Source: Planctomycetota bacterium (GTDB taxonomy: Bacteria > Planctomycetota > Planctomycetia > Pirellulales > Lacipirellulaceae). From it: a stretch of 64,000 bases of DNA. The stretch covers positions 1-64,000 of the forward strand of contig JAJRSE010000094.1 in NCBI GenBank assembly GCA_024278955.1, in the 5' to 3' direction. The translations under genes and the position numbers were made by a program. Under the pieces are notes generated by a model. That model made no database searches. It was given only the letters and a program-made list of their open reading frames with translations, and was not told the origin of the DNA. Positions 2,604-58,848 of the stretch are shown piece by piece; position 1 is the first letter of the stretch; each line of letters begins with the position of its first letter.

Positions 2604-4139
2604 ATGCGATTAAAAATAGTTTGCTTGTGCCTAGGTGGCTCATTTGGGTTGACGGTCGGGCTTACGACTGAGGTTTTGGCCGCTGTGCCGCAATCCCCTC
2701 GTATCGCCAATGTGGAAATCCTTGCCGACCAAGGTTGGACGAACAACTCCGATACGATCTGGTACGACAACTTCGAGTCAAACACAACTCTCAATACGAA
2801 TTACGTCGAATACGTGAACGATAGCGGCGAGTTTGCCCCGATCACCAGTGAATCGCTGGGCGGATCGGGCCGGTCGATGCGAGTCCGCTGGCAGGCGGGC
2901 GAAGTCGGCGCGGGAAACTTGAAAAAGACTTTTGGACGTGCTCCGGGAGGCTACCTCCAAGGCCCCGCCTCGCGACCTACCGAAGATTTCACCGAAGTCT
3001 ACTGGCGTCAGTACGTCAAGATGCAAGAGGGTTGGACTGGCAATCCGTCCAAGCTCAATCGGGCGATTTCCTTTGCGAAGTCCGATTGGTCGCAGGCGAT
3101 GATCGCGCACATCTGGGATGGCAGCCCGACCGGCATCAAAACCGATCCGGTAAGCGGGGTCAACTCCGCATCACAAGTTGTCACCAATGGGTACAACGAC
3201 TTTGGTAATTTCACTTGGCTCGGAGGTAATGGAGCGAGTAGCAGCAATGCCCAGATATTTAACACGGCCGAAAGTGGCCGCTGGGTCAGCGTCGAAGGTC
3301 GCGTCAAGCTTAACACGCCTGGCCAATCCAACGGTATCTTCCAGCTCTGGGTTGACGGACAACTCGAGGCAAGCCGCACCAATCTGAATTGGGTCTACTC
3401 GTGGGATGACTACGGGATCAATGCCGTTTTTCTTGAGAACTGGTGGAATAACGGAAGCCCAGTCGAGCAGGAACGCTATTTCGATGACTTTGTCATTAGC
3501 ACCGCGCCGATTGGCTTGGCAACATCGCCGCTTAATCCACTGGTAACGAAAACTTCCTTCAGCGATCCCGATGGAGGGGATACGCAAGCGGCTTGGCAGC
3601 TGCAGATTGCTTCAAGCCTAAGTGGCAGTGATCTAGTTTGGGATTCGGGCGACATTCTTGGTGCAGGGCTGAGCATTGAGGTGAACAACTCGAGCGGAAG
3701 TTTCCTGGGAAGCCTATCTGGGGCAGATAGGCTTCTCGGGGAGCAGCTCTATGCTGTGCGAGCCAGACAGCAAGACTCCAGCGGCCAATGGTCGAGTTGG
3801 TCCCCTTGGAATACTTCGCTTCAGACCGGCTTAGCGGTAGGGCCGCTTGGCGATTTTGACCAAGATGGCGATACAGACGGGGCCGATTTCTTGCTTTGGC
3901 AGCGCGACACGAGTGTTGGCAGCCTCTCGGATTGGCAAGCCGACTACGGCGCCGCTGCGGCACTCAGCAGCGCGGTCGGTGTACCGGAACCATCGAGTGC
4001 CGTTTTATTCGGGGCTTCCGCGTTGTTGGCATCCATGCTCGCCTCTCGACGTCAAGCGTGTGGTTATCGTGTGTCGAGTCGTCGCAGCTCGCCGTTATCT
4101 ACGAACTCGGCGCCCCTGGCTCGGGGTTTTTTTCGATGA
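2604..4139 (+). CDS. Secreted lectin-fold protein with dockerin-like segment and PEP-CTERM
   Basis: This 511-residue protein is taken from ATG 2604 (MRLK), which follows an AAGAGAAGAG purine stretch; an ATG at 2580 in frame is less likely because it would put charged residues before the signal peptide. The signal peptide ends near VLAA. The lectin-fold and fibronectin-like parts match the upstream gene. A dockerin-like calcium loop ([14 protein letters not shown]) starts near residue 415, and [11 protein letters not shown] near residue 460 begins a PEP-CTERM helix. The sorting signal normally ends soon after the Arg cluster (ASRRQ), but this frame reads on for about 25 residues to a TGA that overlaps the next ATG (4136), so the stop may have been lost. 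It probably sits in the envelope or extracellular matrix after exosortase processing. Confidence 0.75.
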
Positions 4140-5251
4140 AGCACTACCTTGCCAACAATAGACCCAAGCCAAGGCGTCTCGGTTTCACACTTGTTGAATT
4201 GCTCGTGGTCATTGCGATTATCGGCGTCCTCGTTGCCCTCTTGCTTCCTGCTATCCAAGCGGCTCGCGAGGCGGCTCGACGCTCTAGTTGCACCAACAAC
4301 ATGAAGCAACTTGGCCTCGCCTTGCAAAACTATCACTCGGCAATTGGCGAGTTTCCCTCAATTTCGAAGGAAGGCGCAGGGCGGTGGTTTCCGAGATGGA
4401 GACACGGGCCCACTTGGATCGTCTCGATCTTTCCCTACTTTGAAGCAAGTAACACCTTCTCGCGAGTTGATCTCTCCCAAAATTTTTGGGTAGGAGGAGG
4501 TGGTGGCAAGGCAAACTACCAGGCCGTGGATGGTTTTCTTCCCGGCGTAATTCATTGCCCCAGCAGTCCTCTTCCTCGTTCCTATCTGACTTCGGTGCTA
4601 GATGGGGCGGTGGAAATTGCCGAGACCTCCTACGTGGGAGTTGTCGGCGCGGCGTATATCAATATCGACTCCGCCAATATCGATAACAGCGAGTGGCATC
4701 CGACGACTGAGCATGGCACTCTCGCAATACATGGTCCAGTAGCCGGCAGCGGCGTGCTTGTGCTAATGCGAAAAATTCGGATCGACCAAATTAGCGACGG
4801 AAGCTCCCATACCATCATGGTGGGTGAGCACTCCGACTTCACCTCGGTTCCCGTCGCAGTTTCAAAATCTGGGGGTGGTGGCCCACCGCCTCCGTGGGGT
4901 CCGGGGCCCGTCGACATGCGAACTTCCAACCGTCACGGAGCGTTTTGCGGAGTGAGCTACCACATGGAAATGGCAGGGCTCAATTCGGTTGACCGTCTAA
5001 GATGCGCGGGGTTTACATGCATGCGAGCCTTTAATATGACCACGGTCTTTAAGTACGGAATCAATGATTCTACTTAGGAGCCTCCCAATACAGATTACCT
5101 TGGAGCCAATCGAGCCTTTAACTCGGCCCATCCCGGAGGAGCGATGTTTTTGTTTGCCGATGGGCATGTCGGTCTATTGGCAGACAATACAACTTTGCAA
5201 GTTCTAAGCAACCTATCCAACCGAGACGACGGAAACATCAACGCACTTTAG
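4136..5251 (+). pseudogene. DUF1559 pseudopilin-like protein, interrupted by in-frame TAG
   Basis: The ATG at 4136 overlaps the previous stop. The product has the type IV pilin-like N-terminus [20 protein letters not shown] followed by [14 protein letters not shown], the hallmark of DUF1559 proteins. Residues up to 313 look normal. Codon 314 (5075-5077) is TAG, and the same frame continues for 57 codons to a TAG at 5249-5251. The continuation contains the family's conserved end, FNSAHPGGAMFLFADGHV and SNRDDGN. The intact paralogue at 22979-23995 ends in the matching order, FNSAFADGHV and GNREDG, so the downstream part belongs to this gene. It is most simply a nonsense mutation; read-through would restore a full-length protein of 371 residues. 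Confidence 0.8.
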
Positions 5252-5405
5252 TTCGACTTTGATTACTGACGACAACCTGCGGCAACGTTCCTGACTGGCA
5301 TAAACCGCCGTACGAAATACTCCGATGCTGCCCTCTCTATTGAAAACTACTCCTACTGGCTTTTGGCCCCGCGAAGCTCTAATTTTTAAGTCAAGGAAAA
5401 ATATC

Positions 5406-6581
5406 ATGATAACACCAGGACGAATGTTACTGACGATTCCTGCGGCATTTGGGTTGCTCATGGGTGGGCTACTGGCTGGGAGCACGCGGGCGGTGCCGTT
5501 TGCTGGGGGCGCGTTCGATATCGATTTCGTGACGATCGGCAACCCCGGAAACCCCAATGATAGCGGGGGGTGGCTGCACCATGGTGGCGTCGACTACGTC
5601 TACCAAATGGGTACCTATGAAATAAGTGTCGAGATGATCAATATCTACAATGCGGATACGTCGTCGATTGCTGGGCCCGCGATTACGACAGATTCCGCGT
5701 ACGGGGCCAATCGCCCAGCCTACGACGTAAGCTGGAACGAAGCAGCCCGTTTTGTGAACTGGTTGAACCGAGACGGAGGGTTCCAAGAGGCTTACCAGTT
5801 TACGACGAGCGGTGGGAACGACAACATCACGCCGTGGGTCTCTGGGGATGTCGGCTACGATGCGAGTAATCCTTATCGCAACACGGACGCTCGCTACTTT
5901 CTTCCGACCGAGGACGAGTGGTACAAGGCAGCATTTTACGACCCGAACAAGAACGGCGGTGCAGGGGGGTATTGGAAGTACGCCACCGGGAGCGATAGCG
6001 ACCCGATAGGAACAAGCGGCGGAACCACTCCCGGGACGGCCGTCTATCGAGATGGGGTGAACCCCAACCCGCCAGCACCTGCCGCCATTACTAACGCCGG
6101 TGGCCTCAGTCCGTATGGCACGATGGCGCAAAGTGGTAATTATTTTGAGTGGATGGAATCCCCCGGTGATGGAGGCCAGTTCAGTCCCACGGGCGCCGGA
6201 AATCGCCAAATCCGTGGTGGCCGCTGGAACGACCCCCATGGTGCTGGCGAACTGAGTTCGAGCTTCGCGGTCGGCGACTTCATTCCGAGTCGCGAAGACG
6301 GTCGCGTCGGATTCCGTGTCGCCGCTGCCGTTGCTCCTGCGCTGCTTGGCGATTTTGATAACGACGAGGATGTCGACGGGGCTGATTTTCTTATTTGGCA
6401 ACGCGACACGAGTGTTGGCAGCCTCTCGGATTGGGGAACCAATTTTGGTACCGCCGCGGCATTCAGCGCCGCAGTCGGTGTGCCGGAGCCGTCGAGTGCC
6501 GTTTTATTCGGGATCTCCGCGTTGTTGGCAAGCTTTACACGGTTCTCGGCGTCGTCTCGAAGGAGACCTCTCAATCCTTGA
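5406..6581 (+). CDS. Secreted SUMF1-fold protein with dockerin-like segment and PEP-CTERM
   Basis: This 391-residue protein starts at ATG 5406 behind an AAGGAAAA site. The signal peptide ends near STRA, residue 30. Residues about 35-305 are a formylglycine-generating-enzyme/SUMF1 (C-lectin-like) fold, seen in YQMGTYEISVEMINIY, YDVSWNEAARFVNWLN, RYFLPTEDEWYKAAFYDP, GNYFEWMES and RQIRGGRWNDP. The paired cysteines that make a true formylglycine-generating oxidase are absent, so it is probably a structural or binding protein rather than a sulfatase activator. A dockerin-like LGDFDNDEDVDGADF begins near residue 314 and [11 protein letters not shown] near 359. Its last 70 codons are nearly identical in DNA to the tail of the gene at 2604-4139. 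Confidence 0.8.
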   Translation: MITPGRMLLTIPAAFGLLMGGLLAGSTRAVPFAGGAFDIDFVTIGNPGNPNDSGGWLHHGGVDYVYQMGTYEISVEMINIYNADTSSIAGPAITTDSAYGANRPAYDVSWNEAARFVNWLNRDGGFQEAYQFTTSGGNDNITPWVSGDVGYDASNPYRNTDARYFLPTEDEWYKAAFYDPNKNGGAGGYWKYATGSDSDPIGTSGGTTPGTAVYRDGVNPNPPAPAAITNAGGLSPYGTMAQSGNYFEWMESPGDGGQFSPTGAGNRQIRGGRWNDPHGAGELSSSFAVGDFIPSREDGRVGFRVAAAVAPALLGDFDNDEDVDGADFLIWQRDTSVGSLSDWGTNFGTAAAFSAAVGVPEPSSAVLFGISALLASFTRFSASSRRRPLNP

Positions 6582-6639
6582 GCTCAGTCCCTAAGTTCTG
6601 TCCTAGATTTTTAGCCTCTATCGTTTTCGGAAAGATTTT

Positions 6640-35188: not shown

Positions 35189-38100
35189 TCACACGGTGCT
35201 CATCTTCGTTTCTTGTTGTCCTGAGCACGCGGCACAGCCGTTTGTCTGTCCTTGCTCGATGACGTGTAGCTTGGTTGCCAACAGTGTGTTGAGTTGCGTT
35301 TCCGGAGGAAGCTGGACCAAGACTTTGTCGGCTTCGACTTTGACCGGAAAGACTTTGATTGAATAGTCTTCGCCCGATAAACATTCGCCACTCTCCAGCG
35401 AAAACGGTTTTTTGTGTAGGGGGCAAGCAACTTTGGGAGCTTTGCCTACGCTTCCTAGGATTCCACGCGAGAGGACAAACGCATTCTTGTGGGGGCACAT
35501 GTTCTGACAGGCGTACCATTGGTCACGGCTTGCGAAGTTGAAGACCGCGATCTGCACGTCGCCATATTTCACTGCGGCACCTCCGTCGCGTGGGAAATCG
35601 CCTACGCTACCAACTTCTACCCACTGTGGCATAGGTGCCTGGGGTTTTTTCGATTTCCCATTCGTCCCCCCGTTTGTCGTAGAGGTTTCCTCGGGCGTCC
35701 GCACCTGAACAATTTCGCCATCCTTTGGCCAATCGGCAGGGCGTTGCTGTCCCCGTTCGTCGACAAATTCAATGCTAGGCTCGGTCTCTTCCGTGTTGAC
35801 AAACTGTTGGTAGAGTTTGCGTTTTTTGGGGTCGTCGACTACGGCTTTCCATTCGCACTGATAGGTGTCGACCAAATGTTGCATTCGATTTTCTAACTCA
35901 TCGCACAATCCGAGTTTGTCGTGGATCACGACGTCTTTGATGCGATCCAGTCCGCCCTCGAGTTGCTGGAGCCAGGTCGCGGTGCGGGCGAGCTTCTCGG
36001 CGGTGAAAATGTAATACATGAGAAAGCGGTCGATGTATTTCACGGCCGTTTGCTCGTCGATGTCGGTAGCAAAGAGATCGGCGTGTCGCGGGTTTGCGCC
36101 GCCGTTGCCGCAGACGTAGAGGTTGTAGCCGTTTTCTGTTGCGATGAGGCCAACGTCTTTGCACTGGGCTTCGGCACATTCTCGAACACAACCAGAAACT
36201 GCGAACTTGATTTTATGTGGGGTACGAATGCCTCGATAGCGTTTCTCGATTTCTATGGCAAACCGCACACTGTCTTGTACGCCGTAGCGGCACCAAGCGC
36301 TACCGACGCAACTCTTGACCGTTCGCACGGACTTGCCATAGGCGTGGCCGCTCTCGAAACCGGCGTCGATTAGCTCTTCCCAGATGTCAGGGAGTTGGTG
36401 GAGCTGCGCACCAAACAGATCAATACGCTGCCCGCCAGTAATCTTCGTGTAAAGTTGATACTTCTTGGCGACCTCCCCGATCACGATCAGCTTCTCGGGC
36501 GTAATCTCGCCACCAGGCACGCGAGGCACGACCGAGTACAATCCGCCTCGTTGTATATTGGCTAAGAAACGATCGTTGGTGTCTTGGAGGGTTTGGTGCT
36601 CGGATTCTACGATGGTGTCGTTCCAGAGCGAAGCAAGGATCGACGCCACGGTCGGCTTGCAAACTTCGCAGCCGTTGCCGCTTCCGTGAGAAGCAAGCAG
36701 CTCGTCAAATGTGCGAATCTCCTTTACCTTGACAATGGTAAACAACTCTTGCCGAGAAAGAGCGAAGTGCTCGCAAAGATTGTTGTTGATTTCGACGCCC
36801 GCCTCTTCCATGGCCGAGTTGAAAACGTCGGTCACCAGCGGCATACATCCCCCGCAGCCGGTCCCTGCCTTGGTACACGACTTCACGTCTGCGAGCGAGG
36901 TGAGGTCCTGATTGTGAATCGCCTCGCAGACATCTCCTTTGGTGACGTTGTTACAGGAGCAAATCTGCGCGTCGTCTGGCATAGCCGCCACGCCCCCGAG
37001 GGCCGCTGCCGCGCCACCACTCGGCCCCCCCATAAGATCACCAGGCAGGCAGGGCAAGGAGTCGCCGCTTTTGGCGAGGATCGACAGCGTTGCATAGTCG
37101 GAGGCGTCGCCCACCAAAATGCCACCCAAGAGTTGCTCGCCTTGGGGATCAAAAAAGAGCTTTTTGTAGATGCCCCCCAAAGGGTCTTCATAAACCAGCG
37201 GTGTCGCTTGGTCGGCAGGCAGTTCGTACTGCCCAAAACTGGCGACATCGATACCCATCAATTTCAGCTTGGTGGAAAGATCGGCTCCCGTGAATTGGGC
37301 GCCGCTGCCGGTGAGATTCATCGCCAGGATTTCCGCCATTTCGTATCCTGGTGCCACCAATCCGTAAACCATGCCGCCATGTTGGGCGACTTCTCCTACG
37401 GCGTAGATGTTGGCATCGGACGTCTGCAAAGAGTCGTTGACTGCCACGCCGCCGCGCTCTCCCATTTCCAGGCCGCACTCGCGTGCGACATCGTCCCGGG
37501 GACGAATGCCGCAGGAAATGATGACCATGTCGACATCCAGCGTATCGTCCTTGCCAAATACCATTTGTTCAACCCACCCGTCGCCACGGATTTCTTTAGT
37601 CCCCTTATTGAGATGAACATGGACCCCCAATGCTTCGATCCGGCTGACAAGAATTTGTGAGCCCGCGTCGTCAATTTGTCGAGGCATAAGACGCGAGGCA
37701 AACTCGATTACATGCGTTTCCAGCCCGAGATCGTAGGCCGCCTTGGCAGCTTCTAATCCTAGCAGCCCGCCGCCAATCACGGCGCACCGTCGCACTTTCT
37801 TGCCGTAGTCAATGATTTTTTCCAAGTCTTCGATCGTGCGGTAAACAAACACCCCACGATGCTCGACTCCGTCGATAGGAGGCACAAACGGGTACGAGCC
37901 TGTAGCCAATACCACGTGGTCGTAAGAAATCTCCTCGCCAGCGTCGGAACGTACCACACGTTTTTTTCGGTCGATCGTGTTCGCCCGGTCACCTAGGTGC
38001 AACTCGACCCCTTGTTCGCGGTACCAATCTAAGCGGGCAATCATCAGTTGTTCTGCATCGCGGTGGGCGAAGAACGAAGTCAGGCCTACACGATCGTACG

Positions 38101-38248
38101 CAGCACGAGGCTCTTCGCAAAATGTAACGATCTTGTACTGCTTTTTTGCATCAAATTCGACCAACTTTTCAACAAAGCGATGGCCGACCATGCCATTGCC
38201 GATGACGACGATGGTTTGTTTAGAAGATTGCTTCATTCGATATCTCAT
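35189..38248 (-). CDS. nirB: Assimilatory nitrite reductase, NirB-NirD fusion
   Basis: This 1019-residue enzyme reduces nitrite to ammonium with NAD(P)H. The FAD/NAD domain is at about 1-410 (VVIGNGMVGHRFVEK, then VIGGGLLGLEAAKAA). A bacterioferritin-associated [2Fe-2S] domain follows near 428-465 (CSCNNVTKGDVC, then TGCGGC). The sirohaem/[4Fe-4S] domain has C-x5-C near 645 (SCVGSAWCRYG) and C-x3-C near 686 (GCVRECAEAQC). A NirD-like Rieske domain fused at the C-terminus keeps CPHK and CPLHKK near 915-945. NirB alone is about 840 residues. ATG 38236 (MKQSSKQ) is an alternative start because GGAG lies only one base before ATG 38248. It is the last gene of the nitrate operon. Confidence 0.93.
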   Translation of the reverse strand: MRYRMKQSSKQTIVVIGNGMVGHRFVEKLVEFDAKKQYKIVTFCEEPRAAYDRVGLTSFFAHRDAEQLMIARLDWYREQGVELHLGDRANTIDRKKRVVRSDAGEEISYDHVVLATGSYPFVPPIDGVEHRGVFVYRTIEDLEKIIDYGKKVRRCAVIGGGLLGLEAAKAAYDLGLETHVIEFASRLMPRQIDDAGSQILVSRIEALGVHVHLNKGTKEIRGDGWVEQMVFGKDDTLDVDMVIISCGIRPRDDVARECGLEMGERGGVAVNDSLQTSDANIYAVGEVAQHGGMVYGLVAPGYEMAEILAMNLTGSGAQFTGADLSTKLKLMGIDVASFGQYELPADQATPLVYEDPLGGIYKKLFFDPQGEQLLGGILVGDASDYATLSILAKSGDSLPCLPGDLMGGPSGGAAAALGGVAAMPDDAQICSCNNVTKGDVCEAIHNQDLTSLADVKSCTKAGTGCGGCMPLVTDVFNSAMEEAGVEINNNLCEHFALSRQELFTIVKVKEIRTFDELLASHGSGNGCEVCKPTVASILASLWNDTIVESEHQTLQDTNDRFLANIQRGGLYSVVPRVPGGEITPEKLIVIGEVAKKYQLYTKITGGQRIDLFGAQLHQLPDIWEELIDAGFESGHAYGKSVRTVKSCVGSAWCRYGVQDSVRFAIEIEKRYRGIRTPHKIKFAVSGCVRECAEAQCKDVGLIATENGYNLYVCGNGGANPRHADLFATDIDEQTAVKYIDRFLMYYIFTAEKLARTATWLQQLEGGLDRIKDVVIHDKLGLCDELENRMQHLVDTYQCEWKAVVDDPKKRKLYQQFVNTEETEPSIEFVDERGQQRPADWPKDGEIVQVRTPEETSTTNGGTNGKSKKPQAPMPQWVEVGSVGDFPRDGGAAVKYGDVQIAVFNFASRDQWYACQNMCPHKNAFVLSRGILGSVGKAPKVACPLHKKPFSLESGECLSGEDYSIKVFPVKVEADKVLVQLPPETQLNTLLATKLHVIEQGQTNGCAACSGQQETKMSTV

Positions 38249-38272: not shown

Positions 38273-40579
38273 TCAGAGTGTCGGTGAAAGGGAGGAAGGA
38301 GAAATCCGAACGGCGCAGCTCTTGTAGGAGGGTTGCCGAGAGTACGGATCAAAATGGGCTAAGGTTAGTTGATTGGTAGCGGCATAGTGCATCGGTATGA
38401 AAACTTGACCCGGTTGGATGGTTGGAGTGATGAAAGCCTTGGCGAGAACACTTCCGCGCTGCGACTCGACGGTGACCATCGAATTGGGGCGTATGCCTTC
38501 ACTGCGTGCATCCTTCGGGTTGATTTCCACATAAGTCTCTTGAGGATACAGTCGCCGGAGCACACTCGACTTGGCGGTTCGCGACTGAGTATGCCACTGC
38601 GAAGCAGAGCCACGCCCGGTTAGCAAGAGATACGGATATCGCTTGTTGGGCGGTTCGGGCATTTCGCGGAGATCTTCAAACAGCAGTCGAGCGCGTCCCT
38701 CGGGGTGAAAGAACTGTCCGTCGCGAAAGAGTCGCCGTTGGGGATCGTTTTCCTCACAGCCCTCTGGGAACGGCCACTGGATGCCGCCCCGTTCGTCGAG
38801 CATTTGGTAGTCGTCTATGCCGGTGATGTCGCACGGCTGTCCCCGAGTCAATTCTTTAAGAGACTGGAAAACGTCTTCCGGCTGCTGCCAATTGGCAAAC
38901 ATTTCTTCACAACCCCAATGATGGGCAACAAGTCGAAAGATGGAAAAATCGGAGAGCGCCTGGCCTGGCGCTTTAGCCACTTTTTTGACCAGACCGATTC
39001 GACGCTCGGAGTTGATAAAAGTACCTTCTTTCTCGCCCCAGCCTGCGGCAGGCAAGTAAAGGTCGGCTTGCTGGGCGGTTTCTGTCGAATGGTACATGTC
39101 CTGCACGACGAGGAAATCGAGCCGCTCCAGTATTTCCTGGAACGTGTTTTGGTTGATCCACGAATGGCAGGGGTTGGTGCATACCACCCACAGGCCCTTG
39201 ATTTCATCTCGAAGGATTCCTTCAACAATTCGGTCGTAAGGCCAACTCTCTTTTGTTGGGATAAGAGTCTCTTCGATACCGAGCACACCTGCGACTTTTC
39301 TGCGATGGTCCGGGTTTTTGAAATCGTGGCCGCCAAGAAGATTGGTCGTATTGCTGAACAATCGCGAACCCATCGCGTTGCACTGACCGGTAATCGAGTT
39401 GGCCCCAGTTCCCGGACGTCCGAGGTTGCCGGTGATTAACGCTAGGTTGATAATCGCCTGGGCGGTGCGGACCCCTTGGTGACTTTGGTTGACGCCCATC
39501 GTCCACCAAAAGCTAACTCGTTTGCCTTGGTGAATGGTACGGGCGACGTAGTGCAGGCGTTCTTTTAGGATATCGCTTTCTTGCTCGACGCGCTCAGGCG
39601 TGTAGCTTTCGACATGGCGAGCAAAGTCGTCGTAGCCGTCGGTGTGGTCGCGGATGAACTCCGTATCGATCCATTCCTCGGCAATGAGGATGTGAGCCAA
39701 TCCGTACAGCAATGCAAGATCCGATTTCGGTTTCAATGCCAAATGTTGCGTGGCGGCAACGGCGGTCTCGGTGGTGCGTGGATCGAGAACAATGATCTCG
39801 GGCTTGTGAGGGTTGCGACAAATCCGTTGCCACATGATCGGATGAGCAATGCAAAGGTTGGATCCTACCAAGAGAATGACGTCCGACTCTTCAAAGTCCT
39901 GATAAGTATAGGGCGGCGCGTCGAAACCGAACGACTGTTTGTAAGCGACTGCTGCCGTGGCCATACACTGGCGCGTGTTGCCATCGCCGTGCCGCATCCC
40001 CATGCCGAATTTGGCTAGGCTACCAAGGTACGCGATCTCTTCGCTGGGTAACTGGCCCGTGCCGAGAAAAGCGACCGAATCTTCTCCGTGGCGCCTTTGA
40101 ACCTCTTTGAAGCGGTCACAGAACAATTCCATGGCGCTGTCCCAATTCGTGGGGACCAACTTGCCGTGAGCGTCTCGCGAGAGCGGAATGATGCCACGGT
40201 CGGGCGACTTGAGCGGCGAGAGTGCCTCCCACCCTTTGGGGCAGGCCATGCCGCTGTTGACGGGAGAGTCGACCGCCGGGGTCAAATTCACCGCCTCGCC
40301 CTCGACCAGATGAATGTTGAGCGCACAACCGGTTGAGCAGTATCCGCATACCGTTGAGGTCGTAGCATCGGGCCGCTTGCCACGCGGCAGTTGGCCGAGA
40401 CCGAAATTTCCTGGCACACGAACGAGCTGCTCCGTCAAAGGCCCCTGTCGTTGATGGAGTGCCGAGCCTATTGCCGCACACAACCCGTGGTGTTCGTTTT
40501 GATTATCGAGACGGTCTTTAGCTATGCAGTGTTTAGCGATACCGTGTTTAGTGATACCGTGCGAGGAGCTCATGTGCAT
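38273..40579 (-). CDS. nasA: Assimilatory nitrate reductase catalytic subunit (molybdopterin)
   Basis: This 768-residue protein reduces nitrate to nitrite. An N-terminal [4Fe-4S] site (VCGYCSTGC near 76, then GMACPKGW) is followed by molybdopterin-binding segments typical of NasA/Nap[43 protein letters not shown] and NAMGSR. The C-terminal MGD-binding part contains [19 protein letters not shown]. No BFD-like tail is present, so electrons probably come from the partner at 40570-42306, whose end it overlaps by 10 bases. The first residues hold three tandem 15-bp repeats ([15 protein letters not shown]). No Tat signal was seen, so it is cytoplasmic. Confidence 0.9.
40514..40558 (-). repeat. Three tandem 15-bp repeats in the nasA 5' coding region
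   Basis: Units at 40514-40528, 40529-40543 and 40544-40558 (core GTTTAG-x-GATA on the plus strand) are near-identical and encode [10 protein letters not shown] and CIAKD at the start of NasA. Homologues are not expected to carry this, so the repeat probably arose by slippage. Confidence 0.7.
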
Positions 40580-42306
40580 AGTGCTCCTGGCATCTTCGGT
40601 GCGACAGATGCGGCAAAGAACAAGTATCTTTCAATCATTTCGCCGATAAGCAACAATCCCACAATCAGAAGTACGACTATTCCGACGAACAGAGGCTGAT
40701 AGCCCTCGGCACCTACAATCGTTGCTTTGCTAGAGAGCAACAGCAGTGGGAGTAGCAAGCCTCCCATGATGCCGAAGAAGTATCGCAGTAGGTTGATCAT
40801 GCTAAGTTCGCCCGTCAGCAAGAGCGAGGTGCGTTTCAATGGTGTGAAACGTCGTTGCCTAAGCCAAACTAATACGGAACACTCTAATCCGAGCTTGATC
40901 GCCACAAGCACCATGAGCCATCGGCAAAGCGTTTGTCCGTAGTCCCGCATGATCGCGTAGGACGTCAGTTCAGTACTCCAGTAGCAGGCTGCCAGCGAGA
41001 CAAGCAACGCGATCGGCAAACCAAGTATCGCCGAAGAAAGAAAGAACATGCTGCCGGTCCGATGCCCGCTCCAAAATGGACGTTGTGTCTTGACGTAAAT
41101 CATGACCGAGCAGAAAACTCCTACGACACCGCTCAATGCCGTCATGAGGCCAAACCCGTCCGCGAGGGGGACGAGCGCCGGTTGCTCCTTGGCCATCCAT
41201 ACACTGGCGGCGTACAGCATTGCGCAAACGGCGAACAAACTGAACGCCAAGATTTCACGGCTTAACCACGAAGTGCGTAAACCTAGCAATGCTCGAAATG
41301 CATAGCGTGGGCGCCCCAAATGAAAAACTGCCGCATGGATACCGAGAAGCCCCACCACAAGCCCAGCGATCGCGTAGGCGGGACGAATCGTCGCCAGCAT
41401 TAGTGGGTCGGCCCAAGGACCAGAAACCAAAACTTGCCCTACGACAAACACTCCCACTGAGAGTTGCGTCAAAACAAGCATGATTACCAAAGCCCAATGG
41501 CTGTGCTGACGATTGGCCGAGTAATAATCGGCAGGCCGCATATTGCGGGGGAGCGGCTTACTGGTTTTGTAAGTGGTCGTTGGTAGAGTCATGCCTGGCT
41601 CGGGGGCAGTCGGCAAAAATTGGTTAGTTTCGCTTTCTTCGATCACCGACTCCACACGAACGGTGCGAATCTGAATCGCGCCGCTCGGGCACGACTGCAC
41701 ACATGCTGGCGCTTCGCCCACCGCCAGACGGTCGTGGCACATGTCACACTTGCGGACAATTCCCTTGCTCGGGATGTATTGGGGCACGTCGTAAGGACAC
41801 ATGAGTATGCAATACTGACAGCCGATACACTGGTCGTCCAAGTGTCGTACGATGCCGGTCGTTCGATCTTTTTCATAGGCCAACACTGGACAACCCGAGA
41901 GGCAAGCCGGGTCGATGCAGTGGTGACAAGCTGTGGTGATGTGTTGCAGAAGGGGCAGTTCGTCTGAGCCACCATGCAACATGCCAACATTTCGCCACTG
42001 CTCGTCCTCTTCTAGTCCATTCAAATTGTGGCAAGCTGCCACGCATGCCTTACACCCAGAGCAAGCATCAAGATCGACCTCGAAGGCATATTGTTCGCCC
42101 GGCTGTGGCTGGGTAAGTGGAATCAGATTTTGATAGTGGCCTGAAAGAAGTGGCTCGCTGCTGCTTTCATGACGCTGTAAAAATCGCTCCACTGCCGTGG
42201 TTTGCTGCTCTTCCAGCAACGCGCGGACCAACGAATCCTCGGCTAGCGAACCGCTGACTTGGATACCATGGGTGCTCGGGATGGAAAGACCTTCGACAAT
42301 CGACAT
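40570..42306 (-). CDS. Iron-sulfur / membrane-anchor fusion (DmsB-DmsC-like) of the nitrate reductase
   Basis: In this 578-residue protein, residues about 70-215 are a DmsB/NrfC-like ferredoxin domain with four cysteine clusters ([40 protein letters not shown] and CDMCHDRL, closing with CVQSCPSGA), enough for four [4Fe-4S] centres. Residues about 265-570 form roughly eight membrane helices of the DmsC type. The fusion would pass electrons from the quinol pool through its clusters to NasA. Normal NasA partners are NAD(P)H- or ferredoxin-linked, so this is an unusual but coherent arrangement. It is the first gene of the operon, 68 bases from a sigma-54 promoter. Confidence 0.85.
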
Positions 42307-42373
42307 CTGGCAAACTATTCGTGTGATTTCAAGTGATACGTAAATGAACGCGCAGCGCGCCCGATGAGTTCAT

Positions 42374-42389
42374 CGCAAGTTGCGCGCCA
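42374..42389 (-). promoter_or_regulatory. Sigma-54 promoter for the nitrate/nitrite reductase operon
   Basis: On the minus strand the sequence is TGGCGC-GCAAC-TTGCG, which has the invariant GG at -24 and GC at -12 separated by exactly 10 bases. It differs from the consensus TGGCAC-N5-TTGCA at only two outer bases. It lies 68 bases upstream of the first operon gene. Sigma-54 dependence implies an NtrC-like activator and control by nitrogen supply. Confidence 0.75.
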
Positions 42390-42391
42390 TT

Positions 42392-42622
42392 TCATGTTAA
42401 ACCGATAAACGCGCTGCCCTGCTCGCCAAGATAAGGCTCAATACATGTGAGATATTCTCGTGTAAACAATTCCCAGCACTTCGACTCGTAGGTCCTCCGA
42501 CTTGCCTGGGTGCCCAATATCTGAGCAGTGGCTGCGTAGAATCGCCGCGTGATACAGAATCGCGAGTGACCATAATTATCCACAAGTTTCAAGAAATGAC
42601 TTGCCGTCTTGTCTTTTCGCAA
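42392..42622 (-). CDS. Possible small protein between the two sigma-54 promoters
   Basis: This minus-strand frame of 76 codons starts at a TTG and reads like a real protein (FLKLVDNYGHSRFCITRRFY, then ATAQILGTQ and CIEPYLGEQGSAF). The frame is open for about 20 further codons upstream without an ATG. No ribosome binding site is visible, and its stop lies 3 bases before the -24 element of the nitrate operon promoter. It may be a genuine small gene, a remnant, or chance. I do not recognise the product. Confidence 0.25.
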   Translation of the reverse strand: MRKDKTASHFLKLVDNYGHSRFCITRRFYAATAQILGTQASRRTYESKCWELFTREYLTCIEPYLGEQGSAFIGLT

Positions 42623-42645
42623 TAAGAAACAACGCAGTGACGCGA

Positions 42646-42661
42646 TGGCACGGCATTTGCA
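42646..42661 (+). promoter_or_regulatory. Sigma-54 promoter for the nitrate transporter gene
   Basis: TGGCAC-GGCAT-TTGCA is a perfect match to the sigma-54 consensus TGGCAC-N5-TTGC(A/T), with GG and GC 10 bases apart. It is 197 bases upstream of the NarK-like start at 42858, leaving a leader of about 180 bases. It mirrors the promoter at 42374-42389 on the other strand. Confidence 0.8.
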
Positions 42662-42857
42662 ATCTCACAAGGCAGGCGGCAATCCATAATTACATTTCCT
42701 TTGTGTTTGATGCGCCAAGGGAATCCTATCCGACCACCAACACCTCCCTTTAACCGCCTTGCAAGTATTGCTTTAGAAGACTTGCTTCTCTCTCAATAAA
42801 TATTTTTCAAGTAACTGCGCTTGGTTTGCGCCCACCGTTTAGCTCCTGAGACACTCC

Positions 42858-44240
42858 ATGGAAATTCAAAACAAAACGACCTCACTCTGGAGCAATTTTT
42901 TCAAGCTCAACATGCCGCAAATTCGTGCATTCCACATGTCGTGGTTCGCCTTTTTTCTCTGCTTCTTTGCTTGGTTTGGTATTGCTCCGCTGATGGCGGT
43001 GGTACGCGACGAATTGTCGCTGACCAAAGAGCAAGTCGGCTGGTCGATCATCGCCTCGGTCGCGATGACAGCGTTGGCAAGGCTAGCAATTGGCTGGCTG
43101 TGCGGCCAATTCGGCCCTCGATTGACCTACACTTGGCTGCTCATTGTCGGTTCGCTTCCGGTGATGGGGATTGGCTTTGCCCATGATTTTCAGACGTTTC
43201 TCATCTTTCGCCTTTTGATTGGTGTGATTGGTGCTTCGTTTGTTATTACCCAGTATCACACTTCAATCATGTTTGCCTCCAACGTCGTAGGCACGGCCAA
43301 CGCGACTTCAGCAGGCTGGGGAAACCTAGGCGGCGGCGTCACACAACTTGTCATGCCAATGGTTTTTGGACTGTTCGTCACGGCCCTGGGGCTAAGTGAA
43401 GCCGTTGGCTGGCGAGCATCTATGGTCGTGGCGGGGATGGTCTGCTTCTTCACTGGAATCGCGTACTACCGCCTTACTCAAGACGCTCCGGATGGCAATT
43501 TCAAGGAACTGCGAGCGGCGGGGAAAATGCCGTCGACCAAAAAAACGAACGGAGACTTTTGGGTCGCATGTCGTGACTACCGAGTATGGGCCTTGTTTGT
43601 CATCTACGGCGCCTGCTTCGGGATGGAGCTCACGATCAACAATATCGCGGCACTCTACTTCATCGATTATTTTGGATTAGGTTTGGCAGCGGCGGGTATG
43701 ATGGCCGCATCTTTTGGACTGATGAACTTATTCGCACGCACCCTCGGAGGTCTCTCGGGCGACCGCTTCGGAGCCAAGTGGGGACTCCGTGGCCGTGTCA
43801 CTTGGCTGTTCCTCGTGCTTTTTTGTGAAGGCATCGCTTTAATGCTTTTTTCTCAGATGACCGCCTTGGCCATTGCACTACCGTCTTTAATCGCCTTTAG
43901 TCTCTTTGTACAAATGTCCGAAGGCGCAACTTTTTCTGTTGTTCCCTTTGTCAATAAGAAAGCGTTAGGAGCTGTTGCAGGGATCGTAGGTGCCGGCGGC
44001 AATGCAGGCGCCGTTGCCGCAGGGTTTCTGTTCAAGGGGGAGATGGAATGGCCAACCGCTCTCTTAGTTCTTGGCGGACTTGTCACCTTGTGTTCGTTCC
44101 TAGCTTTTACTATCCGGTTTGATACGGAAACAGAAACGGAGGCCCAGGTAGAATTCGAGGAGGCAACCCAACGAAAGAAACTCCACTCCGACGTCCTCAC
44201 CGAGCAGATTGTCGAATTAGAACCCGTCTCGAACGCCTAA
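42858..44240 (+). CDS. NarK/NasA-type nitrate/nitrite MFS transporter
   Basis: This 460-residue protein has about twelve membrane helices. The nitrate-porter signature in helix 5 is present (GTANATSAGWGNLGGGVTQ), with RLLIGVIGASFVITQYH before it and a second Gly-rich signature (GAVAGIVGAGGNAGAVAAGF) in helix 11. Charged nitrate-binding Arg candidates lie in helices 2 and 8 (RLAIGWLCG and RTLGGLSGDRFG). It imports nitrate, or exchanges it for nitrite, to feed the divergent reductase operon. A C-terminal acidic tail is about 40 residues long. It is expressed from its own sigma-54 promoter. Confidence 0.92.
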   Translation: MEIQNKTTSLWSNFFKLNMPQIRAFHMSWFAFFLCFFAWFGIAPLMAVVRDELSLTKEQVGWSIIASVAMTALARLAIGWLCGQFGPRLTYTWLLIVGSLPVMGIGFAHDFQTFLIFRLLIGVIGASFVITQYHTSIMFASNVVGTANATSAGWGNLGGGVTQLVMPMVFGLFVTALGLSEAVGWRASMVVAGMVCFFTGIAYYRLTQDAPDGNFKELRAAGKMPSTKKTNGDFWVACRDYRVWALFVIYGACFGMELTINNIAALYFIDYFGLGLAAAGMMAASFGLMNLFARTLGGLSGDRFGAKWGLRGRVTWLFLVLFCEGIALMLFSQMTALAIALPSLIAFSLFVQMSEGATFSVVPFVNKKALGAVAGIVGAGGNAGAVAAGFLFKGEMEWPTALLVLGGLVTLCSFLAFTIRFDTETETEAQVEFEEATQRKKLHSDVLTEQIVELEPVSNA

Positions 44241-52331: not shown

Positions 52332-55196
52332 TCAGAAAAACCCTCCCCCGCCTCCACCTCCCTGACCGCCGCCTCCCCCGCCTCCCGCCTGCCCCCCTTG
52401 GGTCATGTGAAATTTTTCCTGAAGTAGAATGGTCACCCCATCTTCGATCAATAACTTTTTCCGATCTTCATCCAGATCTTCTTGGGCCACCACTTCGAGC
52501 ACCACTGGGCCTGAGACGCTCATGACCTTGGTAAGCCCAAACAGTGCTGCGCCAAGGAGTTGTTTGTCGCCTTCGCGTGCGATCCTTAGTAAGAGAGCTT
52601 CTAGCGGGTCCGGATTTGGGTAGTTGTTGGGGTAGGAGATTGCGCGAATCGCGAAAAGGTGTTTTTCTGATTGATCGGGATCGTAGAGTACATCAAAGAG
52701 TTTACGTTCGACTGTTTGGGGGATTCTGTTAGGAAAAGCCGATCGCGTTGCATGGCGTACCTTGCGGTCGCTGTGAAAGAGTAGATCAAATTGCTCGGGA
52801 ACTTGGTCGAGGTGTCGGTAGCCAAGCGTGAAGAATACAGCAGTATCGGGGTGCTCTCCTTGCAAAGCCTTGCGAGCGAGTTCTACTGTCTCGGGGTGCT
52901 GTAGAGAGCGATCTGTTTTTATTAAAACTTGCGTTGCGGCTTTGCGAAGGCTGTGGTCGGAGTTGGCAATGTCGAGAAGCTGCTGCCGCTCGGGTTCCTC
53001 CATGTGATACAGATTTCTCAAGAGCCATCGGGTTAGCTTTCCCCATTTTTTTTCGTCGGTTTCGTAGCGATCAAGGAGCGGCGCAAGCCACGTAGACGCA
53101 AGTATTTTCTTTGTGAAGATATCGAGAATGCGCTGCTTCAATTTCCCCTCTGGATAACCGCTACTGATCGAAGTAAAATCATACTCCCCAGCCACATCAA
53201 GAATCGTTTCAGCGGCTGCCTTGGCATGGCCGGCTCGCGCGAACGCGGCAAGTGCGTTGACACACTCGGTACGCTTTTCGACCTTGAGCTCGGTTTTCCA
53301 CATCTCCCGCCACTGGTCGAAGGTTTTGCCGTCGTAGAGGAGGGCTTTTTGGGGCATTCCAGGGTTTGAAACAGAACGATTTGAAGGGGCCGGATAGGGA
53401 TAGGGAGCAGAGATTTGAGGAGCTGCAATAGGTTCGCCTAGGAAAATTGGTGAGTTCGGGTTCACGGGCATGGGTGCAAAAACGGGACTGTGTTGTAGCG
53501 TGGGCTGGGGTTGCGGAACGACGTTTCCTGATCGCATCTTATTCGCAACCGCATCAAGATTCACTTCGACACGCCCCGTCACGAGCTTGTCGACCATGTC
53601 GGGTGCCCCGAACGCTCCACTCGAATTGTTCTTTCGATAGCCCCGGATGACAAAGAACTTTAGCGGCGAGAGTTCTGCGATGTCGTCGCGTTGCAAGACT
53701 TTGGTTACGTCTTCCAACGATTGCGTTGGCCAAACATGTAAGCCAACAAGGATGTCGCCATACTGAAGAAACCCAATGGAACTACCGTCGCCGTGATTGC
53801 CTTTAGTGACCAGCAACCCTCCTTCAAACTTCATCGCTTTCACCCGGGCGAGTTCTTCAATGCCGAGCTGTTCCAGTTCGACGCCGAGCATTTTGTAAGC
53901 CAAGTCGGCAAGCTTTTGGTCTTCGAGTGAAAGGAAGACCGGGATTGCTGGTGGGGCGTCGGTTATCCCAAGAAGTTCTTCCTGAACTAGCCCAAGAACT
54001 TCTTCCTCAGCGATCTCTCCGACCTCTGCGGTAATCTTGTCTTGTGTAGCCACAATTTCGTTTCCGTCTTCTGCAAAAGAAGATTTGATAGGTTGCCACA
54101 GCACAGCGGCGAATACCGCCAATAACAGAATGCTTATCATCCCTAACGTGTTTCGTGAAACCAACATCGGTTCGTCCTCCAGTTTGAGTATACGGCGGAT
54201 GCGTGAAGTAAGCGGATGGTCGGCCATAGCCGAGGCCGTAGCGAGGGAAAGGGATTGCGAACCTTTCGCCGCAATGTTTACCAGCAACTCAGCATACGCT
54301 TGCGGCGCGGCCGTCTGCGCAACCACAACAGCATCGCAACATTGCTCGCGGTCGAGACGCACCCGTCGGCTAACAAGCCACACGGCCGGATGAAAAAACA
54401 GCAGCGATTCGACGAGCCGCTGGGCCAAGTTCACCAAATTATCCCACCGCCGGACATGGGCCAGTTCATGCAGCAAAACCATTTCGAGTTCCTCAGGCGA
54501 CCAACCGGTTAGTGCCGCGGGTGGGAGCAAGATAAGCGGGCGGACAATGCCGATGAGCACCGGTTGGACGATGCGATCGCAAATAACAACGCTTACCTTG
54601 CGGGTAAGGTTTAGCGAAGCACGAGCACGCTGGGCCGTTTCGAGGACGATGCCCGAGGCAACCGGTTCGCAGCGCCGCCGGAGCCGCTCGGAGCCAAGCA
54701 GCCCTGTGGCGAGCAGCGCAAAAGTGATTGGCGCCCCGGCAATCCATAACCACGGCAGGTAGACGATGAGCCAAGCGGCATCGCTTTCTTGAACTGGTTT
54801 AGCCCTCTGTGCCAATAGAGTTGAGGCAAGTAGTGTCGGCGCGGGGGCCGTCGGCGAGCTTAGCGGTTCTATGTCGAGTTCCAAAGGTAGTGTAAATTCC
54901 GGTATTTCCGCGAGGTCGATCGTCGTACTGGGCGCAACGGAGATCAGCTTTACCTGAGGCGATTGGGCCAGCCAGATCGCAATGCCGACCGGCAATATCG
55001 AGAGAGCGGCGAAGACCGCGAGCGAGACGGCATAACGCAGAGCTGGCGCCGCACGGTTGATGAAAAATCGGATTGCTGCGCCGGCGATCGCAACCGCCGT
55101 TCCGAAGATCAAAAAATAGCACATCGTCCAGGCGGCGATATGCCAGGGCGAGGACGTATGGTTGGCAAGTTCCCAAGGGGCGAAGAGCGAGTTCAT
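52332..55196 (-). CDS. M56 (BlaR1/MecR1-like) membrane metallopeptidase with PDZ-like and HEAT-like regions
   Basis: This 954-residue protein has N-terminal membrane helices at about 20-45, 55-78 and 145-165. A cytoplasmic gluzincin site HELAHVRRWDN lies at 243-247 and onward, with a downstream DREQCCDAVVV. A further membrane helix is at about 345-370. The exported C-terminal part is not a penicillin-binding domain. It has a PDZ-like module near 455-530 (LAYKMLGVELEQLG, then SIGFLQYGDILVGLHVWP) followed by HEAT-like helices to about 915 and a run of glycines (GGGGGGGQ, twice). It overlaps the BlaI-type gene by 4 bases, so signal-driven cleavage of that repressor is the likely mechanism. The signal is unknown. 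Confidence 0.85.
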   Translation of the reverse strand: MNSLFAPWELANHTSSPWHIAAWTMCYFLIFGTAVAIAGAAIRFFINRAAPALRYAVSLAVFAALSILPVGIAIWLAQSPQVKLISVAPSTTIDLAEIPEFTLPLELDIEPLSSPTAPAPTLLASTLLAQRAKPVQESDAAWLIVYLPWLWIAGAPITFALLATGLLGSERLRRRCEPVASGIVLETAQRARASLNLTRKVSVVICDRIVQPVLIGIVRPLILLPPAALTGWSPEELEMVLLHELAHVRRWDNLVNLAQRLVESLLFFHPAVWLVSRRVRLDREQCCDAVVVAQTAAPQAYAELLVNIAAKGSQSLSLATASAMADHPLTSRIRRILKLEDEPMLVSRNTLGMISILLLAVFAAVLWQPIKSSFAEDGNEIVATQDKITAEVGEIAEEEVLGLVQEELLGITDAPPAIPVFLSLEDQKLADLAYKMLGVELEQLGIEELARVKAMKFEGGLLVTKGNHGDGSSIGFLQYGDILVGLHVWPTQSLEDVTKVLQRDDIAELSPLKFFVIRGYRKNNSSGAFGAPDMVDKLVTGRVEVNLDAVANKMRSGNVVPQPQPTLQHSPVFAPMPVNPNSPIFLGEPIAAPQISAPYPYPAPSNRSVSNPGMPQKALLYDGKTFDQWREMWKTELKVEKRTECVNALAAFARAGHAKAAAETILDVAGEYDFTSISSGYPEGKLKQRILDIFTKKILASTWLAPLLDRYETDEKKWGKLTRWLLRNLYHMEEPERQQLLDIANSDHSLRKAATQVLIKTDRSLQHPETVELARKALQGEHPDTAVFFTLGYRHLDQVPEQFDLLFHSDRKVRHATRSAFPNRIPQTVERKLFDVLYDPDQSEKHLFAIRAISYPNNYPNPDPLEALLLRIAREGDKQLLGAALFGLTKVMSVSGPVVLEVVAQEDLDEDRKKLLIEDGVTILLQEKFHMTQGGQAGGGGGGGQGGGGGGGFF

Positions 55197-57207: not shown

Positions 57208-58848
57208 ATGAATGCGACATCTCAGAGCGATACCCCTTCTCCCGAGGCGATGGAAGCGATTGTACGGAGTGCCCATTCGCTCTACTCGTTGCCGGCGATT
57301 GCGGCTGAGGTTCTTGAACTAACGAGCTCTCCGAAGGTGGATGCTCGGGCGCTGAAGGATTGTATCGAGGTCGATCCGGCGTTAACCGCGAAGATTTTGC
57401 GAGTGGTTAATAGTTCGATGTTTGGTTTGAGCCGCGAGGTGAGCGACCTGAACCAAGCGATTGCTCTACTTGGCACAAAGCCCTTGAAGCTGTTGGTGTT
57501 GGGTTTTAGTTTGCCAGAAAACTTGTTTGTCGATATCGCTCGGAAGCAGTTAGACTGGTATTGGAACCGAACGCTTGCGCGGGCCGTAGCAGCGCGAGAG
57601 ATAAGCGAGATGTTTTGGGATCGCCCTGGCGACGATGCCTTTTTAGCGGGGTTGTTGCAAGATCTCGGCATTCTTGTGCTTCTTGGGGAGTTCAAAGAGT
57701 CGTACTCTCCGCTTCTAGAAAAAGCGATCGACCAACAGGCGAACCTGAGTCGCTTGGAGGTGGACTCCTTAGGGTTTGATCATGCAGGTTTGAGCGCTGC
57801 GCTGTTGGAACATTGGAACATGCCCAAGCAGCTGGTCGGTGCGATTTCGGAGCCTCGTGAGCAAGCGTCGTTGCTTCGGAAGCAAACCCCTGTTGCCGAG
57901 CTGGCTCGCATTTTGCATTTGGCCGAGCTGGTAACGGAGTTGGTAGCCGAGAAGCAACTTCGGGCGCTTGCCGATCTTATGGAAATTGGTGAAGCGTATT
58001 GCGGATTGAATAAGGAGCTTCTTCACGAGCTGGTTGCTAGGTTGCAGCCTAAGGTAGAGCAGCTTGCCGAGGTGTTTTCTCTCGACTCGGTCGAGGGCGA
58101 TTATCTTGAACTGTTGGCTGAGGCCCATTCGTTGACATCAGAAATTGTCGAAGAAGTTGCCGAGCCGCTGAGTCGAATGAAATGGACAGAGGAGCAAGCG
58201 GGCGCAGAGATTCTGAGCGAAGTCACTCGCCTACGTACGGCGGTCGACCAATTGGTTTCTTCGCCGACGGTCAATCCGGTGAGCGACAATGTGGCAAGTG
58301 AGGTTGCGGAAATAGAAGCAGGGAGCGGCCCACCTCAAACGGAAGCCCAGTCGAGCGATTCGCTTCTGGCAACATTGCAAGTGGGAGTCAGTTTTACCGA
58401 TCGGCTTACGCTGGCTGTTGGCAGAAGCCGATCACGCCGCGAACCTATTAGCGTTCTTGTTCTCGAGTTGAGCGCCGAAGGAGATCAGAGATTTCAGCAT
58501 GAAGAGGTCATCTCGAAAGTGCTCGAGTCGGTATGCCGAGACTTGGAAGGACATGGTGTTTTCGTAGAGAAGGTAGCGGATGGTCAGCGGGCTGTGATTT
58601 TGCCGGACTACGACCGGCAGGAGGCCGTCCGCTATGCGAATGAGATTGTTTGCAGGGCAGAGCAGGCGGTAGAGCGGCTCGAGGCGATGGGAGCTACTAC
58701 CGGGCTCTCTATTGGCGTTGGTGTGGCAGCAGTCAGCTTGCCGGTGAAGAATTTTCCGCCGCTTGATTTGATCGAAACGGCCGAGCGGTGCCTGGCCGCG
58801 GCGCGGTCGTCGGATTCAAGTGTTGTGAAGAGCCTTGAAATTTATTGA
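57208..58848 (+). CDS. HDOD-domain regulator with C-terminal degenerate GGDEF-like domain
   Basis: The start is ATG 57208 (MNATSQ), giving 546 residues. The HDOD domain spans about 20-215: LYSLPAIAAEVLELTSSPKV, CIEVDPALTAKILRVVNS, LLGTKPLKLLVLG and AFLAGLLQDLG. A helical linker follows, and residues about 400-545 look like a GGDEF fold (SVLVLELSAEGDQRF, GLSIGVGVAAVS) without the GG(D/E)EF motif, so it should not make c-di-GMP. HDOD proteins are signalling or stress regulators. The gene runs opposite to the CBM9-like gene. Confidence 0.8.
   Translation: MNATSQSDTPSPEAMEAIVRSAHSLYSLPAIAAEVLELTSSPKVDARALKDCIEVDPALTAKILRVVNSSMFGLSREVSDLNQAIALLGTKPLKLLVLGFSLPENLFVDIARKQLDWYWNRTLARAVAAREISEMFWDRPGDDAFLAGLLQDLGILVLLGEFKESYSPLLEKAIDQQANLSRLEVDSLGFDHAGLSAALLEHWNMPKQLVGAISEPREQASLLRKQTPVAELARILHLAELVTELVAEKQLRALADLMEIGEAYCGLNKELLHELVARLQPKVEQLAEVFSLDSVEGDYLELLAEAHSLTSEIVEEVAEPLSRMKWTEEQAGAEILSEVTRLRTAVDQLVSSPTVNPVSDNVASEVAEIEAGSGPPQTEAQSSDSLLATLQVGVSFTDRLTLAVGRSRSRREPISVLVLELSAEGDQRFQHEEVISKVLESVCRDLEGHGVFVEKVADGQRAVILPDYDRQEAVRYANEIVCRAEQAVERLEAMGATTGLSIGVGVAAVSLPVKNFPPLDLIETAERCLAAARSSDSSVVKSLEIY

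Follow-up and report, generated by a model that had tools for sequence, protein, structure and literature searches.

Between the divergently transcribed nitrate transporter gene narK and a nitrate-reductase operon of a planctomycete of the family Lacipirellulaceae lies a gap of 551 bp, which raises the question of whether the two sets of genes are switched on separately or together and, if together, by which protein. We addressed this question in a 64,000-nt stretch of contig JAJRSE010000094.1 (hereafter the window), in the rest of the genome and in related genomes.

Genes and sigma-54 boxes of the divergent nitrate locus

The genes and signals of the locus are collected in Table 1. For the molybdopterin oxidoreductase of the operon, the NCBIfam NasC/NasA and formate dehydrogenase models both match below their cut-offs. 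The fusion of DmsB-like and DmsC-like parts has its best named match in Adhaeretor mobilis (Pirellulales, Lacipirellulaceae) and is also present in records from Planctomycetota and Verrucomicrobiota; its position next to an assimilatory-type nitrate reductase suggests that electrons are drawn from the quinone pool and not from NADH or ferredoxin. A record titled Klebsiella pneumoniae (L115, CALQJI020000102.1), perhaps a mislabelled genome bin, contains a fusion relative with 39% identity. Farther along the window, positions 52332-55196 of the minus strand encode a 954-aa protein with a likeness to BlaR1-type sensors that, at 109 bits, is far under the cut-off of 400.

Table 1 Features of the narK/nitrate-reductase region, in window coordinates.
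Feature	Position	Strand	Remarks
NirB-NirD fusion, nitrite reductase	35189..38248	-	NCBIfam NirB 1059 bits, NirD 115 bits; both above cut-off
Molybdopterin oxidoreductase, assimilatory nitrate reductase type	38273..40579	-	Pfam Molybdopterin
DmsB-like iron-sulfur / DmsC-like membrane anchor fusion	40570..42306	-	First gene of the operon; Pfam Fer4_11 and DmsC; NCBIfam below cut-off
Sigma-54 box TGGCGCGCAACTTGCG	42374..42389	-	Faces the nitrate-reductase operon; weight matrix, shuffles
First 17-bp dyad TGCCCAATATCTGAGCA	42511..42527		Part of the putative shared activator site
Second, imperfect dyad TGCGTAGAATCGCCGCG	42533..42549		Offset from the first by exactly 22 bp
Sigma-54 box TGGCACGGCATTTGCA	42646..42661	+	Faces narK; weight matrix, shuffles
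NarK-type nitrate/nitrite transporter	42858..44240	+	TIGR00886 300.5 bits (cut-off 311.7); Pfam MFS_1

An initial annotation of the window had placed two outward-facing sigma-54 boxes in the gap. Both are found at the coordinates given there and read as stated, with a GG-N10-GC core close to TGGCACG-N4-TTGCW, and they lie 197 and 68 bases from the start codons, in agreement with the reading frames starting at 42858 and 42306. Scored with a weight matrix that we built from the general sigma-54 consensus and not from a published table, TGGCACGGCATTTGCA reaches 19.3, the maximum of the matrix, and TGGCGCGCAACTTGCG 15.0, the highest and the third-highest score of the 64-kb window. The site at rank 2 (position 57902, score 17.3) lies within a 570-codon open frame. 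Forty dinucleotide shuffles of the window yielded a mean of 0.8 sites of at least 14.9 and none of at least 19, and in 300 shuffles of the gap alone the observed best score was reached in a fraction of 0.000 on the narK side and 0.010 on the nitrate-reductase operon side. From the usual spacing between box and start, transcription is predicted to begin near 42672 for narK (leader ~186 nt) and near 42363 for the operon (leader ~57 nt).

As to how rare such boxes are, a point raised in the initial annotation, the whole genome contains 32 matches to the strict pattern TGGCNCN5TTGCW, versus 17 for the reversed control. Because of this control count, a match to the strict pattern is weak evidence by itself, and conservation must therefore decide. 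The genome assembly (146 contigs, 93% complete) contains one rpoN gene (Sigma54_DBD match, 211.7 bits), the absence of which had been named as grounds for rejecting the promoters.

The outward box pair is conserved

Divergent orientation of narK and the fusion gene was found at 12 loci, the window included. Our counts of boxes and dyads cover 10 of them, namely the window (L126) and nine planctomycete relatives; L049, with a gap of 1,489 bp, and L099, a distant bacterium with a gap of 155 bp, were left out, and L127, L128 and L129, which share their genomes with L048, L046 and L047, were counted once. In L051, too, an outward pair of boxes precedes the operon; its contig has no narK match, and the locus was excluded from the counts. 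The best plus-strand and the best minus-strand box face outward in 10/10 loci, with 222 to 317 bp between them. Summed over the 10 gaps, the best scores amount to 149.8 on the operon side versus a shuffle maximum of 93.0, and to 158.7 on the narK side versus 89.9 (300 shuffles per gap), with one side weak in three loci (operon side in L046, p 0.08, and L054, p 0.09; narK side in L053, p 0.10). The operon-side box is the same in L048 and one base off in L130, and when the five closest gaps were simply aligned, little outside the boxes proved to be shared. Non-conservation, another ground for rejection named at the outset, is thus not what the relatives display: they keep the boxes. We conclude that the two divergent promoters before the nitrate-use genes are very probably genuine.

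A tandem dyad lies between the boxes

Activator sites between the boxes had not been picked out in the initial annotation; we have now located a putative one, a tandem of two dyads at 42511-42549. It matches 11 of 12 positions, is the sole stretch of the window with at least 11, and lies 121 and 96 bp from the boxes. Across the 10 regions, TGC-N11-GCA occurs 14 times between the boxes (shuffle mean 1.57, maximum 7; 500 shuffles), and 10/10 regions contain it (shuffle mean 1.5, maximum 5). No other TGC spacing from 0 to 30 gives more than 6 occurrences; TGC-N14-GCA and TGC-N19-GCA, with 6 each, also exceed nearly all shuffles, far less so than N11.

At a tandem offset of 22 bp, 105/120 positions match, versus 78.9 in shuffles (sd 2.3, largest 87 of 150), and 91 is the highest value at any other offset between 17 and 44. 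The 22-bp offset was picked after viewing the sequences, and therefore the other offsets and the independent targets glnII and amt serve as controls. The best tandem of each region matches 9 to 12 of 12 positions, except for L054 with only 8, and the full tandem form is poor in 2/10 regions (L047 and L054). A matrix trained on glnII sites alone found the divergent nitrate sites in 8/10 regions, at background fractions of at most 0.034; L047 and L054 fail, and the window's own site ranks third in the window. The tandem dyad thus seems to be an activator site common to both promoters.

The element recurs before other nitrogen genes

In the genome as a whole, the exact tandem pattern is present at 11 distinct places (13 rows, two places being read on both strands), and with one mismatch allowed it occurs 180 times versus 110 in the reversed control; the tandem pattern by itself is not specific. 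At one exact place the pattern is followed, 87 bp downstream, by a strict sigma-54 box before glnII and glnA. Five others (L187-L191) have no sigma-54 box of 13 or more, and four of the 11 were left out of the box examination. Starting from the boxes, we examined 30 of the 32 strict sigma-54 places for dyads; in 5/30 the 350 bp upstream contain a site with at least 10 of 12 positions: glnII, narK, amt, L019 and L025. The L019 box lies within an opposite-strand reading frame, and the L025 box ~400 bp before a 680-codon DUF1549/DUF1553 frame. The 17-bp dyads upstream of sigma-54 boxes that mark an NtrC-type regulon are therefore present, and since element and box stand before each of them, the glutamine synthetase genes (glnII-glnA) and amt qualify as co-targets. 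The genome also has P-II and GlnD genes; they follow a second amt, which has no box of at least 11 and no dyad pair of at least 9 in 1.9 kb upstream.

The same signals were scanned in relatives. At glnII loci, the own genome included, the element (11 or 12 of 12 positions) is present in 21/24, and element plus a box of at least 12 below it in 16/24; in L197, L198, L201, L208 and L214 the element is present and such a box is absent, L207 and L209 lack both, and L216 starts at a contig edge. For amt, the scan covered 27 of 30 loci, all but the most distant ones, L250-L252; these loci have a box in 27/27 and at least 10 of 12 dyad positions in 23/27, the inner arms often being TCA and TGA. Non-divergent nitrate operons of 13 family genomes, headed by narK or ABC-transporter genes (Pfam-checked in L279 only; first-gene starts estimated in L280, L281 and L283), have a box of at least 12 within 500 bp upstream in 12/13, and the element is clear in only 4/13, lying in L278 on the wrong side of the box. 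Among 30 genomes from the order's other families, one has glnII, and in this sole genome (L426) the signals are absent at the cut-offs used, so that glnII is unusable for tracing the regulon there.

A proposed two-way control region

These observations allow us to propose that the gap belongs to a sigma-54 nitrogen regulon and controls transcription in both directions, and that in it one NtrC-like activator serves both promoters from the shared tandem dyad, a reading that we consider likely. Sigma-54 RNA polymerase would wait in closed form at both outward boxes, and a single NtrC-like enhancer-binding protein would bind the tandem dyad about midway between them. From there, as the behaviour of this protein class leads one to expect, the bound activator could reach each of the two promoters by DNA looping and use ATP to open it. 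Under a shortage of fixed nitrogen, the genes for taking up and reducing nitrate would be induced along with those for ammonium uptake and glutamine synthesis; this co-switching is proposed because the same dyad pair and a box stand before glnII-glnA and amt. The initial annotation had predicted joint control by sigma-54 and one enhancer-binding protein, and the tandem dyad between the boxes, with its recurrence before these genes, lends support to that prediction.

Candidate activators and alternative readings

The genome has 14 sigma-54 activator domain matches, 12 of them strong. Ten of these 12 were scanned with the ntrC family model, and none reached its cut-off of 558.6, the best being L012 (447.7) and L004 (434.8). 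We compared the activators by reciprocal-best partners among 102 proteins of eight genomes (the own genome and seven others). L003, L004, L005, L006, L007, L009 and L011 have partners in all seven other genomes. L012, despite its top ntrC score, was rejected, as it has no reciprocal-best partner in G017 and G010, both of which have an amt box with dyads (L233, L244). Partners are likewise absent for L002 in G014, for L008 in G017 and G010, and for L010 in G017, and L013 has one only in G010. A search for activator genes beside the nitrogen loci of relatives gave activators in the very distant L099 and otherwise no more than two partial, receiver-like matches (E 1e-15 to 1e-18).

The rejected L008 is part of an arrangement of its own (L267, C91:110500-120500). 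The activator, at 4105-5634, has an N-terminal protoglobin domain, and just downstream of it a sigma-54 box, TGGCACCCCGTTTGCA at 5858-5873, lies 268 bp before a hemerythrin-like gene (6142-6588). This arrangement could be an oxygen- or NO-sensing switch.

Among the seven common candidates we favour L003 and L004. One variant within the proposed explanation, which we hold possible but tentative, is that L003, which lacks a receiver domain, acts as the activator in place of a two-component NtrC such as L004. L003 consists of AAA and HTH domains only, the best solved matches of its HTH are Fis proteins, and beyond its partners in 7/7 compared genomes it has matches in 104/117 genomes of the order (E 1e-130). 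However, L004 is equally common, has a receiver domain and the second-best ntrC score, and adjoins a gene for a 268-aa histidine kinase (a kinase gene also adjoins L012); L005, L006, L007, L009 and L011 are just as common to all compared genomes; and the neighbours of L003, which are glutamyl-tRNA reductase, cytochrome-assembly and lyase genes, include none of nitrogen control, and L003 could act at chaperone promoters instead. The fullest form of the proposal, in which the order-wide L003 runs the regulon in Lacipirellulaceae and nearby planctomycetes, needs no phosphorylation of the activator and serves two divergent nitrate promoters from one tandem element, seems to us rather doubtful.

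The sigma-54 promoters might also be real and the dyad be bound by a repressor or by two different activators, so that the sides are not jointly switched. Seven activators common to all eight genomes would leave room for this, as would the poor tandem form in L047, L054 and most non-divergent nitrate operons. Yet at three kinds of nitrogen gene the element lies 87 bp (glnII) to ~110-120 bp from the sigma-54 box, which is the usual distance for sigma-54 activators, and its skeleton is that of the E. coli NtrC box; we therefore regard this alternative as quite unlikely. It is, finally, very improbable that the boxes are relics or arose by chance and that transcription starts from sigma-70-type or ECF promoters that escaped detection: planctomycete sigma-70 promoters may not match the scanned consensus, and about half of the strict-pattern matches may be chance, but both boxes are conserved amid otherwise hardly alignable DNA and the region has just one weak sigma-70-like match, at chance level (0.7 expected). 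One NtrC-like activator at a shared enhancer is, on the sequence data, the most economical reading.

Relation to known systems

Divergent sigma-54 promoters with a shared upstream site are known, for example, from nitrogen-fixation gene clusters. The locus described here resembles that type in having two outward sigma-54 boxes with an activator site between them, and differs from it in that the genes are narK and the assimilatory nitrate-reductase operon of planctomycetes and in that we infer the sharing.

The E. coli NtrC binding consensus, TGCACCAnnnTGGTGCA, is a 17-bp TGC-N11-GCA dyad, and E. coli NtrC targets include glutamine synthetase, according to a published account (PMC8743547). Sigma-54 boxes, the 17-bp TGC-N11-GCA dyad and a glutamine synthetase target are thus common to the E. 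coli regulon and the planctomycete one. Unlike in the E. coli box of that account, the arms here are TGC-N-Y-R (TGCnYA-like) and not TGCACCA / TGGTGCA. The planctomycete dyads, moreover, stand in a strict 22-bp tandem, and the targets include glnII and the divergent nitrate locus; the bacteria belong to the Planctomycetota, and 0/10 scanned activators reach the ntrC cut-off.

A 2025 survey (PMC12316311) reports many predicted sigma-54 promoters in Planctomycetia with chaperone targets such as GroES and DnaK, describes nitrogen enrichment of sigma-54 promoters as wholly absent beyond named classes, Planctomycetia not among them, finds NtrB/NtrC limited in Planctomycetota, and refers to earlier work on Pirellula strain 1. 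Unlike the picture drawn in that survey, nitrogen genes here carry sigma-54 boxes together with dyads. In the literature searched, which largely excludes subscription papers, we came upon no account of a sigma-54 nitrogen regulon in planctomycetes, and the sensing of nitrogen shortage by planctomycetes is hardly described in it. The mechanism is already known; the shared activator site and the nitrogen regulon in planctomycetes are what would be new. An element conserved before the genes for glutamine synthetase, ammonium transport and nitrate use would define the regulon, predict transcription starts and provide a bait for the activator; if the reading is true, sigma-54 nitrogen control would be older or more widespread than the proteobacterial picture implies.

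Like the Planctomycetia of the survey cited above (PMC12316311), this genome also has sigma-54 boxes before dnaK and groES (L257, 4703-4718; L258, 3158-3173). The scan of 30 strict sigma-54 places detected no dyads upstream of these two, which suggests that another activator works there. A second back-to-back box pair is present in L256, with TGGCACATCGATTGCT and TGGCACATCATTTGCT at 5283-5298 (minus strand) and 5605-5620 (plus strand). This pair has no nitrogen dyads of at least 9 positions within 350 bp upstream, and of its two boxes one precedes a sugar-transferase gene (Bac_transf), the other a gene for a 523-aa protein that lacks a Pfam match.
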